A DNA stretch of 64,000 bases, from contig NZ_JAFBEG010000004.1 of NCBI RefSeq assembly GCF_016908635.1, positions 62,001-126,000 of the forward strand, written 5' to 3'. Origin of the DNA: Sporohalobacter salinus (GTDB taxonomy: Bacteria; Bacillota; Halanaerobiia; Halobacteroidales; Acetohalobiaceae). Made by a program: the position numbers and the translations under genes. The notes beneath the pieces are model-generated. The model did not search any database. It was not told where the DNA came from and was given only the letters and a program-made list of their open reading frames with translations. Below, piece after piece: positions 30,992 through 36,202 of this stretch (its first letter is position 1; the number at the start of each line of letters is the position of its first letter).

Positions 30992-32056
30992 ATGTTTACA
31001 GGTAGATTTTTTAAAGTGCTTTATGGACTTATTCTAATTTTATTAAGTTTATTTTTAGCAGGGCAGATTCCTTATGTGATGGATCCGCTATCTACAGTAT
31101 TATCTATTATACTGCTGCCGATATTGTTAGGAGGATTCTTTTATTATCTACTGCGGCCGATAGTTTGTTTTTTTACTGATAGAGTTGGGAATAAGAATTT
31201 TGCTGTTTTGATAACTTTTTTATTGATTATTATTTTTGTAGTTTCGGTTATTTATTTTGGAGGAAGTATAATTTATATTGAAATAGAAAAGTTAATTAAA
31301 TATTTTTCTCTTAATTATGAGACAATTAGAGAAAGTATTAACCAAATTATTAAGTTAGGAGATGGACATCTTAATTTCTTATCTGATTTTAATATTCAAA
31401 AGAGATTATTTGCTTTTGTTCAAGGGATACTAGAGAGATTTAGTAACTATAATTTTATGGGAGCTTTTTCTTCATTAACGAACTTAGGAACGATTATAGT
31501 TTTAATTCCCTTCGTAGTATTCTATTTTCTTAAAGATGATAATAAAATTTATCAATTGATTTTGTCTTGTTTTGCTGAAGAAAATAAAGAACCGGCTAAA
31601 AGAATGTTAAGTGAAATAGATAAAGCCTTATCTACCTATATTGGCACTCAATTAATTGTAGCTTTTATTTTAGGAATCTTTATGTTCATAGGATATATGG
31701 TTATTGGTTTACCAAATTCTTTAGCTTTAGCATTGATAATAGCAGTAACTTCTTTAATTCCTATTTTAGGGCCGGCCTTAGGAATTTTACCGGCATTATT
31801 TGTAGCAATAACAACTAATTTTTTGATGGTAGTGAAGTTATTTGTTGTATTGGCTATAGCTCAAAATTTAGAAGGGAATTTAGTGCGGCCTTTAGTCCAG
31901 GGAGGAAGCCTTAATATTCATCCGCTAGTTGTTCTTTTCTTAATTGTAATTTCTATTCTATTATTTGGAATATTAGGTGCTCTATTTGTCGTGCCGATTT
32001 ATGTAGTAGCTAGAATAGTAATAAAGAGGAGAAAAGAATTTAATAATAAATCTTAA
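30992..32056 (+). CDS. AI-2E family transporter (PerM/YtvI-like permease)
   Basis: Polytopic membrane protein, 354 aa, with about eight transmembrane segments: two near the start, one pair around 60-100, and four or five after residue 165. It carries the family's C-terminal glycine/proline-rich block SLIPILGPALGILPALFVA and QNLEGNLVRPLVQG near 295. The family contains the AI-2 exporter TqsA and Na+/H+ antiporter-like members, so the substrate cannot be named. GGGGAGAG precedes the ATG. It ends only 6 bp from the convergent recombinase gene, with no clear terminator between. Confidence 0.88.
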   Translation: MFTGRFFKVLYGLILILLSLFLAGQIPYVMDPLSTVLSIILLPILLGGFFYYLLRPIVCFFTDRVGNKNFAVLITFLLIIIFVVSVIYFGGSIIYIEIEKLIKYFSLNYETIRESINQIIKLGDGHLNFLSDFNIQKRLFAFVQGILERFSNYNFMGAFSSLTNLGTIIVLIPFVVFYFLKDDNKIYQLILSCFAEENKEPAKRMLSEIDKALSTYIGTQLIVAFILGIFMFIGYMVIGLPNSLALALIIAVTSLIPILGPALGILPALFVAITTNFLMVVKLFVVLAIAQNLEGNLVRPLVQGGSLNIHPLVVLFLIVISILLFGILGALFVVPIYVVARIVIKRRKEFNNKS

Positions 32057-32062
32057 CTTCAT

Positions 32063-32647
32063 TTAGAGACAGACTTTGTCATAGGCTTCATTTACATCCT
32101 TTTGTTCAATACCTAAATATTTTCTAGTTGTGGAGGTGGAATTATGTTTAAACTTTGTTTGTATAGTTTCAATACTTACTCCTGCCTTGTGGGCATGGTA
32201 GCCCCAAGTCTTTCTTAAAGTATGAGTCCCGACATCTAAATCTGTTAGGCCTATTTTTTGACACCATTTTCTAACTAATTTATAGGCTTGAACTCTGCTT
32301 ATTGATTTAGAATGATCTCGTTTATTGAAGATAAGATAGTTATTTTTATTATTTGATAAATTAGTTTTATCAAAGAGTAGATTAAGAGTAATTTGGGCTT
32401 TACAATTAATTTTAATTACATTTCTTTTTTCGGTTTTTTGTTCAACTATTTCAAAAGTGTTCTTAATTTTATTATCTGAATTAACTACATCTTTGATTTG
32501 AATTCTTAACAAATCTCCAATTCGCAAACCAAAATTTATTCCTAAGGTAAAAAGAGTATAATCTCTCCAGTTATCATTTTTTTTAAGAAGATCTTTAATA
32601 TCTTGAATTTTACTTTTATCTCTAATTGGTTCAACTCTATTACCCAT
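32063..32647 (-). CDS. small tyrosine recombinase (FimB/RecV-sized)
   Basis: Site-specific DNA recombinase of 194 aa containing only the catalytic domain. The full catalytic set is present: Arg42 (GLRIGD), Lys71 or Lys74, His142 and Arg145 (HTLRKT), His168 (FKHNS) and nucleophile Tyr177 (TRKYLGI). It lacks the N-terminal core-binding domain of XerC/D and phage integrases. That size and layout match FimB, FimE and Clostridioides RecV, which flip short promoter segments. GGAGGG lies 7 nt upstream. Its start is 87 bp from a pair of inverted repeats. No phage genes are nearby. Confidence 0.88.
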   Translation of the reverse strand: MGNRVEPIRDKSKIQDIKDLLKKNDNWRDYTLFTLGINFGLRIGDLLRIQIKDVVNSDNKIKNTFEIVEQKTEKRNVIKINCKAQITLNLLFDKTNLSNNKNNYLIFNKRDHSKSISRVQAYKLVRKWCQKIGLTDLDVGTHTLRKTWGYHAHKAGVSIETIQTKFKHNSTSTTRKYLGIEQKDVNEAYDKVCL

Positions 32648-32733
32648 CTTAGTCCCTCCAAATCATTAACAATTATATAACAATCATAATATATATTAAT
32701 TAATTTGGCAAGGGAAATCTTTTATAGTAATAG

Positions 32734-32758
32734 GTTAACAGAAGAGATATTTTGTTAA
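32734..32758 (+). repeat. left inverted repeat arm
   Basis: GTTAACA, then GAA, then GAGATATTTTGTTAA. The last 15 bases are perfectly complementary to 32942-32956. The arm itself has GTTAACA and TGTTAAC half-sites in opposite orientation around its centre, resembling a tyrosine-recombinase core site. Confidence 0.85.
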
Positions 32759-32941
32759 CTTATTTCAATTAATAAAAACAAATTATTTCAAATATTAGCA
32801 ATTAATAATTATATTTTAGGACACTTTTTCCATGTTATTCATTATATTCTTGTTTATTTATTACTCTATTCAATATTTATACCATTAATCCTTTTTATTT
32901 ACATAAAAAAATATTTTTTATGTTCTATTTTTCAATATTAC

Positions 32942-32966
32942 TTAACAAAATATCTCAATTGTTAAC
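32942..32966 (-). repeat. right inverted repeat arm
   Basis: TTAACAAAATATCTC, then AAT, then TGTTAAC. It is the reverse complement of the left arm apart from three central-flank bases. Confidence 0.85.
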
Positions 32967-33115
32967 TTTAATAGTATTATTAGTAATACTTCTAAAGTAA
33001 AAAATTCACAATAATTAGATTTTGGATTTCAATAGTGGAAAAGTCAAAACAGGAGTCAAACTTATAAGATAAAAGTCTAGAAATATCAAAAAAATAAGTT
33101 AAGGAGTTGAAAAAA

Positions 33116-34954
33116 ATGAATTTTAAATTTAATCTTAAGACAAAATTAGTTTTAATTTTTATAGGTGTATTACTAGCTTCTTCTTTAATTATTAATTATT
33201 TATTTATTAGTCATAACACAGAGTGCATAGAACAAAATGTGTTTAGAAAGAACATGTCATTGGCTAAAGGACTTAAAAGCCAGATAAAGATTACAATTAA
33301 TGATATGGAAGCAGTAATGAGGAGCTTAGTTGATACAAAGAATGTCAAAAATATGGAAAGTAATGATTATTTAGATAGTTTACTAAAAGGAATTGCTGAA
33401 GAATATCCTGTCATATCCCAGTTATATATTATGGATCGCAACGGAAGACAGATTTATAAAACTTCAGGGTCTTTGGGTAACAGGGCTGATAGAGAGTATT
33501 TTCAAAAAGCAATTCAGGGTAAAACGTATTTTTCTAAAGCAATTATTTCTCGTAGTCAAGGTACACCAATTATAGTTTTGGCAATACCCATTAAAAAGAA
33601 TGGGGAGATAGTAGGAGTTATGGGAGCTAATTTAGATTTAACATATTTAAATAGATTAGCATCTAAAACGAAGCCTGGTAAAACCGGTTATGGATATATA
33701 GTTGATAGAGATGGAAGACTTATCGGTCATCCTGATAGCCAACTAGTTAATAATAGATATGATGCATCTAATTTACTTCCGGTTAAAAAAGTCATGCAAG
33801 GCCAGAGCGGAACTGACAGATATACTTTTAAAGGAGAAAAGAAGTTAGCTTCTTATACTCCAATAGAAGAAACAGGCTGGGGAGTGGTAGTTCAGTTAAC
33901 TTCTCAGGAAGCTTTTAGCCAAATAGATCAAGAAAAGGAATTTGCTTTAATGATAGTTCTTGTTTCTGGATTGGCTGCCATTGGTATAGCATTACTACTT
34001 GCCAAATACATAACTGACCCAATTAATAAGTCAATGAACTTTGCTCGAGAAATAGCTCAAGGGAGGTTGAATGTTGAGGATTTAAATATTACCTCTCAAG
34101 ATGAGTTTGGTAAATTAATGGAAGCTCTTAATGAGATGAAGAATAATTTAAAGACGGTAATAGAGAACTTAGTTGATACTTCCGAAGACTTATCTGCTTA
34201 TAGTCAGGAATTATCTGCTTCGGCAGAGGAGGGTAATGCAATAATAGAAGAAAACACTGAAAGTGTTGAGCAGATGGCGACTAGTATTCAGCAAATTTCA
34301 GCCAGTAGTCAGGAAGTAACCGGTTTAGCTCAGGAGGCTAGTTCAAAGGCTCAGCTTGGTAGTGATAAAGTTAAGGAAATGACTAATATTCAAGAATTTA
34401 GAGAAGCGGTTAATAAGACAGTAGAAGACATTAATGAACTAGATACTAATTCAGAAGAAATAAGTAAGATAGTAGCATTAATTACCAATATTGCAGAACA
34501 GACGAATATGTTAGCTTTAAATGCAGCTATTGAAGCAGCTAGAGCCGGAGAACATGGAGAAGGTTTTGCAGTAGTTGCTGAAGAGATTAGAGAATTAGCT
34601 GAAGAAACAACAAAAGCTACTGGAGAAATTAAGGAATTGGTTGCAACTACTCAAGATAAATCAAAAGAAAGCTTAGAAGCTGTAAAAGAAGTACAGAATA
34701 AAGTAGAAAATAGAAAGGAAGTATTAGAAGAAACAAATGAAGTTTTCTCAGAAATTAAAGCTGCTATAGAGAATACATCGGCCCATATTCAACAAACAGC
34801 TGCAGCAACTCAAGAATTAGCTGAAAATAGTGATCAAATAGAAAATACATCTCATGATATGGAAAATATGTCTCATGAAATAACTAATTCTTCACAAGAA
34901 TTAGCCAATATGGCTCAAAAGTTACATGATTTAATTGAAGAATTTAAAATTTAA
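33116..34954 (+). CDS. methyl-accepting chemotaxis protein with Cache sensor
   Basis: Transmembrane chemoreceptor, 612 aa. TM1 is at about 13-32, followed by an extracellular Cache-type sensor (40-270) with [15 protein letters not shown] and [19 protein letters not shown]2 is near 280-300, then HAMP, then a signalling domain whose tip [21 protein letters not shown] binds CheA/CheW. An in-frame TTG at 33107 is possible, but AAGGAG at 33101-33106 is spaced for ATG 33116. It is directly downstream of the inverted-repeat segment, so its expression could depend on that segment's orientation. Ligand unknown. Confidence 0.93.
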
Positions 34955-34967
34955 GTTTAGTTAAATT

Positions 34968-35001
34968 AAAAGACTCCTAGATGATCATCTAGGAGTCTTT
35001 T
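34968..35001. terminator. 34-bp perfect palindromic bidirectional terminator
   Basis: AAAAGACTCCTAGATGA followed by its exact reverse complement, between the convergent chemoreceptor and YczE-like genes. A-rich and T-rich flanks give a T tract on both strands. Confidence 0.9.
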
Positions 35002-35019
35002 AAAACTTTTCAAAGTGTT

Positions 35020-35610
35020 TTAATTGTCATGAGAGCTATTTAGCACATTTAACGAAAATTCTACTACTGGTCCTGTTCCTAAAGCAGCACAGACAGTACC
35101 TATGCCTACTGGCCCTCCTAGTATAGAGCCGAGTATTAAAATTGTTACTTCGATTCCATTCCGAACCAGTCCTAATTTGAATTTTAACTTTCGGTGTAGA
35201 GCTATCATCAAATTATCTCGTGGACCAGCCCCACATTGAGCTGAAATGTAGATTCCTGCTCCATTACCGAAAATCAGTATTCCAGAGAATAAATATAAAT
35301 ATTGCCAATAAATATTGGCAGGTTGAGGAACTAAAGGTAGAACTAAATCAATCAAAGATCCAATTAATATAATACTAATTATTGTACCTAATTTTGGTTT
35401 GACACGAACAAGTAAAAAACTAATTATAATTACTACCAATCCCGTTATCTGGTTTGCTTGTCCCACAGTTAGATCAAAATATTTTGTTAGACCAATATGG
35501 AATACATCCCAAGGTCTTACTCCTAGATTTGATTTAATAGTTAAGACTAATCCTATACTAAGAACTAATACACCAATCAAAAATCTTGTCCATTGTTTCA
35601 GTAATTTCAT
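35020..35610 (-). CDS. YczE/YyaS-type integral membrane protein
   Basis: 196-aa membrane protein with about five transmembrane helices, of the YczE family. Family-like blocks are IKSNLGVRPWDVFHIGL near residue 30, GIYISAQCGAGPRDNLM near 125 and the C-terminal GTGPVVEFSLN. Function is unknown; Bacillus YczE is tied to surfactin production and others are predicted transporters. An in-frame GTG at 35619 is too close to AAGGAG; ATG 35610 is spaced 10 nt from it and is preferred. Confidence 0.85.
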   Translation of the reverse strand: MKLLKQWTRFLIGVLVLSIGLVLTIKSNLGVRPWDVFHIGLTKYFDLTVGQANQITGLVVIIISFLLVRVKPKLGTIISIILIGSLIDLVLPLVPQPANIYWQYLYLFSGILIFGNGAGIYISAQCGAGPRDNLMIALHRKLKFKLGLVRNGIEVTILILGSILGGPVGIGTVCAALGTGPVVEFSLNVLNSSHDN

Positions 35611-36202
35611 ATGTAACACACTCCTTTTTAACCTTAATTATATACTAGAGTGATCAGTGATTAATTTTTACTAGTTATTTTTATTTAAAAGGCTATATTT
35701 ATTTCCTTTACTTTTATTACTTCATTATTCAATTGCATTATACTATTAAATTATTACTACAATATTATAATGAAGTTAAAACTAAGTTAAAAATTATCAT
35801 ACTTAATCATTCCGGTTCCTTATACTATAACATTATCTAATTATTATCAATGATTAATTCGAAGTATCTATTTTAAAAGTATTTGCAATTTTCTAATCAA
35901 AGTAATAAGAATTAGGATTTATGGATCTAATCTAGAAAACCTGAATAAAATAATATATTAGTAAGAATAAGTTGACAGATAATAAATGATAGGATGATTT
36001 TAAGTAGCGATTTAGAATGAAGCATATATTATTTTTTTAGATCAGATAAAGTTTTTATCTAAAATACCTCAAGAAAACTCCATCTAAATATTTTAGTTTG
36101 ATTTAGGTAGTGAGGTCCGCGTTGTTGTGATAAATGTTTGATATATAGTATATTATAATTATTAGCTGGAGATTTTTTAAAGAATTAAAGGAGGTTAATT
36201 TA
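35611..36202. other. 592-bp AT-rich intergenic region
   Basis: No gene is supported here. It contains TTGACA at 35972-35977 with a poor -10 (TGATTT) 17 nt later. A possible promoter TTGTGA-18-TATATT (36125-36154) lies about 50 nt before the next gene, whose ribosome site AAAGGAGG is at 36187-36194. One GC-rich island, GAGGTCCGCGTTGTTGTGA (36112-36130), stands out but I cannot assign it. Confidence 0.4.

Follow-up and report, generated by a model that had tools for sequence, protein, structure and literature searches.

The locus of Sporohalobacter salinus described here is probably a dedicated inversion switch, in which a small tyrosine recombinase flips a neighboring DNA segment whose orientation sets the transcription of a methyl-accepting chemotaxis protein (MCP) gene. 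Two judgments combine into this overall estimate: it is very likely that the segment is inverted by the adjacent 194-aa enzyme and, given inversion, quite likely that the MCP gene is what inversion controls. For the sequenced isolate itself, we infer both that the segment inverts and that the MCP gene is the controlled one. Switches of this type are known; here, the type is found as a dedicated family in one bacterial order, the Halanaerobiales, and this family of paired recombinases and sites, together with its association with Spo0E-like genes, appears to be undescribed in the open-licence literature searched. The window, i.e., the whole stretch of 64,000 nt that was analyzed, corresponds to positions 62001-126000 of contig NZ_JAFBEG010000004.1 and belongs to a 2.68-Mb genome assembled in 54 contigs; all unqualified coordinates refer to the window.

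A FimB-sized recombinase next to a unique pair of inverted sites

The proposed inverting enzyme is encoded on the minus strand (32063..32647). The Phage_integrase profile (PF00589, E = 8.4e-22) matches residues 14-178 of the 194-aa product, which is nearly the whole catalytic domain, and there is no separate core-binding domain. Residues R42, K71/K74, H142, R145, H168, and Y177 are conserved across 12 orthologues (57-72% identical), except for R42 in one copy. The protein therefore possesses the R-K-H-R-H set and the nucleophilic tyrosine that define the tyrosine recombinase superfamily, as well as the size (~200 aa) and the catalytic-domain-only architecture of FimB-type invertases, so that its initial annotation as a recombinase of this kind with all catalytic residues is borne out by the profile match and orthologue conservation. 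When aligned to FimB/FimE with hhalign, it yields a probability of 96.6% over 156 columns with 24% identity, and the nearest solved structures are Xer proteins. However, its scores against the NCBIfam models of tyrosine-type DNA invertases, NF007370 and NF007371 (26.9 and 35.9 bits), stay below the cut-offs (221 and 222, respectively); it is thus predicted to work in a FimB-like manner, yet is not filed here as a member of the FimB family.

Separated from the recombinase gene by 86 nt, two repeats in inverted orientation (32734-32758 and 32942-32966) agree at 22 of their 25 positions, 15 of them in a row, and enclose 183 bp with a G+C content of 15.3%, compared with 32.6% for the window. The repeats and the AT-rich DNA between them had been reported previously for this stretch, and we reproduce them to the base. 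A point absent from that description is that the arms are themselves imperfect dyads (GTTAACA...TGTTAAC); for this reason, the repeats reach 74% even when they are scored as direct repeats. Each arm corresponds to a 24-bp site, TTAACA-N12-TGTTAA, a near-palindrome with an asymmetric middle. As delineated by repeat, motif, and central-identity analyses, site 1, GTTAACAGAAGAGATATTTTGTTAAC, occupies 32734..32759 on the plus strand (24-bp core, 32735-32758), whereas the inverted site 2, GTTAACAATTGAGATATTTTGTTAAG on the minus strand, occupies 32941..32966 (core, 32942-32965). The partners differ at three arm-side positions and are identical in the central 6 bp, GAGATA (32744..32749 on the plus strand and 32951..32956 on the minus strand), which we propose to be the region of strand exchange, based on partner identity at seven loci. 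The sites stand in the orientation for inversion, not excision, and are well supported by sequence comparison as the putative cognate pair of the enzyme. The proposed invertible segment corresponds to 32759..32941 (183 bp, 15% G+C).

TTAACA-N12-TGTTAA occurs at exactly two sites in the 2.68-Mb genome, both at this locus, 183 bp apart and beside the recombinase gene, whereas the reversed pattern, used as a control, averages ~1 occurrence per genome across 15 genomes. The spacer-specific pattern TTAACA-N3-GAGATATTTTGTTAA, with three mismatches allowed, has 2 matches in the window versus 0.03 expected. No Rfam family was detected within 31000-36000. The complete 233-bp block is present in a single copy (one full match in a block search of the genome), which leads us to reject, for this genome, a MITE or another multicopy element, one of the cases that the initial annotation had named as refuting a switch.

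The chemoreceptor gene as the proposed target

On the other side of the segment, 149 nt beyond site 2, begins the proposed target, a plus-strand gene (33116..34954) for an MCP of 612 aa from the ATG at 33116, with a dCache_1-HAMP-MCPsignal architecture (Pfam E-values of 9e-45 and 1e-39) and a ribosome-binding site, GGAG, recognizable in the sequence at 33103..33106 on the same strand. The chemoreceptor is thus where it had been annotated, although the two gaps are 86 and 149 nt rather than 87 and 150.

The designation of the locus as an invertible promoter switch stands in part. The invertible element with a FimB-sized recombinase is well supported by the anatomy of the sites, their uniqueness in the genome, the pairs at orthologous loci, and the presence of both orientations in the assemblies of two relatives (see below). 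Phase-variable expression of the chemoreceptor would be plausible, judging by the location of its gene and by the related loci. By contrast, the best sigma-A-like match on either strand of the segment in the window is at chance level (92% of shuffled sequences reach it), and the same scans revealed no terminator in the segment. Two orthologous segments contain strong promoter matches, namely TTGCCA-17-TATAAT in genome G005 (reached by 0 of 300 shuffles) and TTGAAA-17-TATCAT with a TG in G011 (shuffle fraction 0.013); both face away from the target as assembled and, hence, would face it after inversion. Furthermore, the flagellar switch of Clostridioides difficile operates after transcription has been initiated and has no promoter of its own within the segment (PMC5386303), so that the lack of a match above chance in the window segment is no objection to a switch.

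We propose that the 194-aa recombinase would bind the TTAACA/TGTTAA arms of both 24-26-bp sites and exchange strands within the asymmetric central GAGATA, flipping the 183-bp segment between its own gene and the chemoreceptor gene. One orientation would permit transcription of the dCache chemoreceptor and the other would not, either through an invertible promoter, as in fimS, or after initiation, as in the RecV flagellar and cwpV switches; a clonal population would then hold cells differing in what is sensed. The three arm-side mismatches between the sites might slow the reaction.

Orthologous loci carry their own site pairs next to signaling genes

Orthologues with 65-72% identity are found in five other genera and two other families (genomes G005, G008, G011, and G049, and Natroniella acetigena, G009, with two copies), and each of these loci is equipped with a separate inverted pair of TTAACA-N12-TGTTAA-like sites. 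In G011, G005, and both N. acetigena loci, this pair is immediately 3′ of the recombinase gene, in G008 it is ~1.4 kb 3′ of the gene, and in G049 a perfect pair (24/24) surrounds the recombinase gene; the window differs in having the pair on the 5′ side. The arms are conserved between loci, and each locus has a different sequence in the middle 12 bp. Across the seven pairs, partners show no mismatch in the central 6 bp (0/42 positions) as opposed to 13/42 in the neighboring 3 + 3 bp (Fisher P = 8e-5), a comparison that was not built in, because it was the outer arms that served to locate most of the sites. Conservative recombination by tyrosine recombinases requires an identical central strand-exchange region and conserved enzyme-binding arms, and the observed central identity and arm conservation fit such sites for this reason. 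The locus thereby displays two features of an inverton, namely an inverted pair with an identical central region and an adjacent, putatively cognate recombinase that co-occurs with the sites at orthologous loci. This property reaches beyond the close orthologues: in a broader sample of recombinases down to ~33% identity, for which a scan with short peptide patterns listed homologues of 33-46% identity in place of the closest orthologues, a site pair of this type was located nearby in 16 of the 120 loci among the matches listed, whereas control stretches had one in 2 of 325 cases; the window and its close orthologues account for four of the 16.

By raw count, all seven loci (7/7) adjoin signal-transduction genes encoding MCP, HD-domain, Che, or Spo0E-like proteins. 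The neighbor is a dCache MCP gene in the window; Spo0E-like, HD-domain, and MCP genes in G011; an HD-domain gene followed by cheW and, as judged from their translations, cheA-, cheY-, and cheB-like genes in G005; HD-domain and MCP genes at the C95 locus of N. acetigena; a gene in G008 whose product combines an HD-domain protein and a Spo0E-like domain in one fusion; and Spo0E-like genes at the C87/C104 locus of N. acetigena and in G049. In G008, cheB- and cheD-like fragments are situated between the recombinase gene and its switch (locus L040, 3734-4744), suggesting a decayed chemotaxis operon.

Since the window pair is located 5′ of the recombinase gene, the segment is bordered by two divergent genes, either of which it could affect. 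It is conceivable, although fairly unlikely, that the switch is real but that its output is the recombinase itself rather than the MCP, or that one promoter alternates between the two divergent genes. Such autoregulation would agree with the segment being directly upstream of the recombinase gene, with both sites 5′ of it, unlike in the orthologues, and with sites flanking the recombinase gene itself in G049 and many distant homologues. However, the promoter-like match of the recombinase gene (TTGCCA-17-TATGAT, 32683..32711 on the minus strand; 10/12 in a consensus scan, a score at chance rate in AT-rich DNA) falls outside the segment, between the start of the gene and site 1. Moreover, in G005, G009, and G011, the segment is located between the 3′ end of the recombinase gene and a signaling gene and, consequently, cannot be the promoter of the recombinase there. 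Control of the MCP gene remains the preferred reading.

Within the same genus, the syntenic place of G001 (a single contig of 2,469,596 bp) is occupied by an MCP gene without a recombinase. The shared flanks comprise queuosine genes and an AI-2E-family transporter gene on one side and a YczE-like gene on the other; the gap at this place in G001 is 135 bp, and its MCP matches that of the window only from residue 188 (47% identity over 188-612). Thus, either the window lineage acquired the module or G001 lost it, and the switch is dispensable, which we count against the switch reading.

Both orientations in the assemblies of two relatives

Comparison of orientation among related genomes, proposed in the initial annotation as a check, recovered both orientations in the assemblies of G008 and N. 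acetigena. A scaffold of G008 contains the same 38-bp sequence of flank plus site twice, joined to opposite ends of the segment around a 100-N gap, and the far end of the segment, read as its reverse complement, is identical to the 39 bases following the first flank copy (39/39). Contig C87 of N. acetigena terminates in ...CATTATGTTAA, at the very base at which the two orientations part (one continues with T, the other with C); its overlap with the reverse complement of contig C104 is exactly 77 bp long. The published assembly was produced with SPAdes using k values up to 77 (PMC9476925), and a mixture of orientations is expected to produce just such a 77-base node, from which the graph continues in two ways at the crossover. 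The second switch of this species (C95) was assembled without a break, indicating that the mere presence of short inverted sites is not enough to interrupt the assembly graph of this genome. We infer from these assemblies that both orientations coexist in cultures of G008 and N. acetigena; the raw reads of the latter are public at 350x coverage (SRR19259016; PMC9476925).

No second orientation was detected in the assembly of the window genome, where a single contig runs through the locus and the block has one full match. This single orientation and the three mismatches between the sites would be expected if the locus were a locked relic, a former switch whose segment no longer inverts in this species, and related copies are indeed decaying, as exemplified by a recombinase fragment elsewhere in the same genome (G000:C18) and by the replacement of Arg42 with Ser in a G047 copy. 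Nevertheless, a relic is unlikely: the recombinase frame is intact with all catalytic residues, the central 6 bp of the two sites are identical, and three mismatches, as in the window pair, are also present in each of the two pairs with both orientations in their assemblies (G008 and N. acetigena C87/C104).

It is very unlikely that the repeats serve as operators or delimit a small mobile element instead of being inversion sites. Each arm is a dyad, as are repressor operators, and the unit is absent from the syntenic place in G001, indicating gain or loss of the whole block. However, distant copies of an operator need not share their central bases, whereas the middle of the sites varies between loci and is fixed within pairs; in addition, the unit is single-copy, the repeats are inverted, not direct, and two relatives were assembled in both orientations. 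Finally, although weak repeats are common in a region of 15% G+C and several were found, we reject chance as an explanation of negligible probability, because none of 150 dinucleotide-preserving shuffles of 32063-33116 reached 22/25 for 25-nt inverted pairs at comparable distance (mean of the best pairs 18.6, maximum 21) and independent pairs exist at orthologous loci, the excess of the spacer-specific pattern pointing the same way.

Relationship to known inversion systems

The FimB/FimE-fimS system of Escherichia coli resembles the window locus in employing a tyrosine recombinase of ~200 aa that consists of the catalytic domain only and in the location of a short segment between the recombinase and the would-be target. 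It differs in sequence (23-26% identity to the window recombinase), in the use of two enzymes rather than one, and in the sequence of the sites; furthermore, unlike for fimS, the promoter match of the window segment is at chance level and the next gene encodes a chemoreceptor, not fimbriae. The RecV switches of C. difficile, compared by description, are similar in that a tyrosine recombinase inverts a segment of similar length connected to motility or signaling; the flagellar switch spans 154 bp with 21-bp repeats, and RecV also switches cwpV (PMC5386303). RecV serves several sites with unlike repeats (PMC5903667), whereas in the family described here a single adjacent pair appears to be cognate to each enzyme.

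Similar in terms of targets are the read-pair inversion signatures reported in Clostridia by Sekulovic et al. in 2018, located beside an MCP gene in Anaerotignum propionicum, beside an HD phosphodiesterase gene in Desulfitobacterium dehalogenans, and beside chemotaxis genes in Clostridium thermocellum (PMC5903667). These are the same target classes as those of the Halanaerobiales switches; therefore, the class is not new, and the earlier suggestion that a chemoreceptor would be a novel target of such a switch does not hold. The passage on these signatures names no recombinase for the sites and no Halanaerobiales species, and Spo0E has 0 occurrences in PMC5903667. The open-licence literature on invertible elements of these organisms and on Spo0E phase variation yielded no earlier report of the Halanaerobiales recombinase-plus-sites family or of the Spo0E-like association. 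Further counterparts of the window locus are its orthologues in Halanaerobiales and relatives, which share the recombinase (65-72% identity), the inverted TTAACA-N12-TGTTAA sites, and an adjoining signaling gene, but vary in site position (3′, 5′, or flanking), target gene, and central sequence.

More tentatively, and with somewhat less than even confidence, we suggest that these are order-wide, self-contained switches, each with its own recombinase and site pair, fronting the nodes of one decision network. The nodes would include chemoreceptors, HD-domain second-messenger genes, a che operon, and Spo0E-like sporulation phosphatases, and the window segment would be common to the divergent recombinase and chemoreceptor genes. 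If so, halophilic anaerobes would bet-hedge swimming, settling, and sporulating by DNA inversion, and the recurrence of the module beside chemotaxis, HD-domain, and Spo0E-like genes suggests which decisions they hedge. The tuning of chemotaxis is usually attributed to methylation and receptor copy number; if DNA inversion were to turn receptors on and off, sister cells would differ heritably in sensing.

Additional recombinase copies and other loci

A truncated recombinase copy of 125 aa in the window genome (G000:C18:33000-44000, locus L050, 5743-6120) is probably a pseudogene. No TTAACA-type sites were detected near the paralogue on contig C42 of the same genome, near the G002 copies, or near either of the G047 copies. 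The latter (locus L047, G047:C32, 3968-4558 and 6084-6674) are 1.5 kb apart and lack recognizable sites; the second, in which Ser replaces the catalytic Arg42, is probably inactive. Two sister-clade copies in G002 (L048 and L049) are each followed by a closely similar gene resembling an Rpn-type nuclease, with which they possibly form a small mobile pair.

Contig C42 starts within a ~95-bp repeat ending in ...TTACTAACAAAATATCACAACAG, which is found at the ends of window-genome contigs C42, C33, C40, C9, C31, and C35 and at G000:C10:43885-43969 (L046, L165-L169, and L171). This repeat, which breaks the assembly, directly precedes the ribosome-binding sites of unrelated genes (including thrS-, cysS-, and mnh/mrp-like genes, as judged by sequence), has no Rfam match, and appears to be unrelated to the switch.

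Among more distant homologues, recombinases in Lachnospiraceae-type and other genomes (L096, L101, L100, L108, and L110) are encoded near flagellin and/or CsrA-like genes, named by sequence only. In an Acetatifactor metagenome-assembled genome (L096, 6797-7555), near-perfect inverted sites enclose the recombinase gene between two divergent flagellin genes, an arrangement reminiscent of a Hin-type flagellin switch in which a tyrosine recombinase would act as the invertase.
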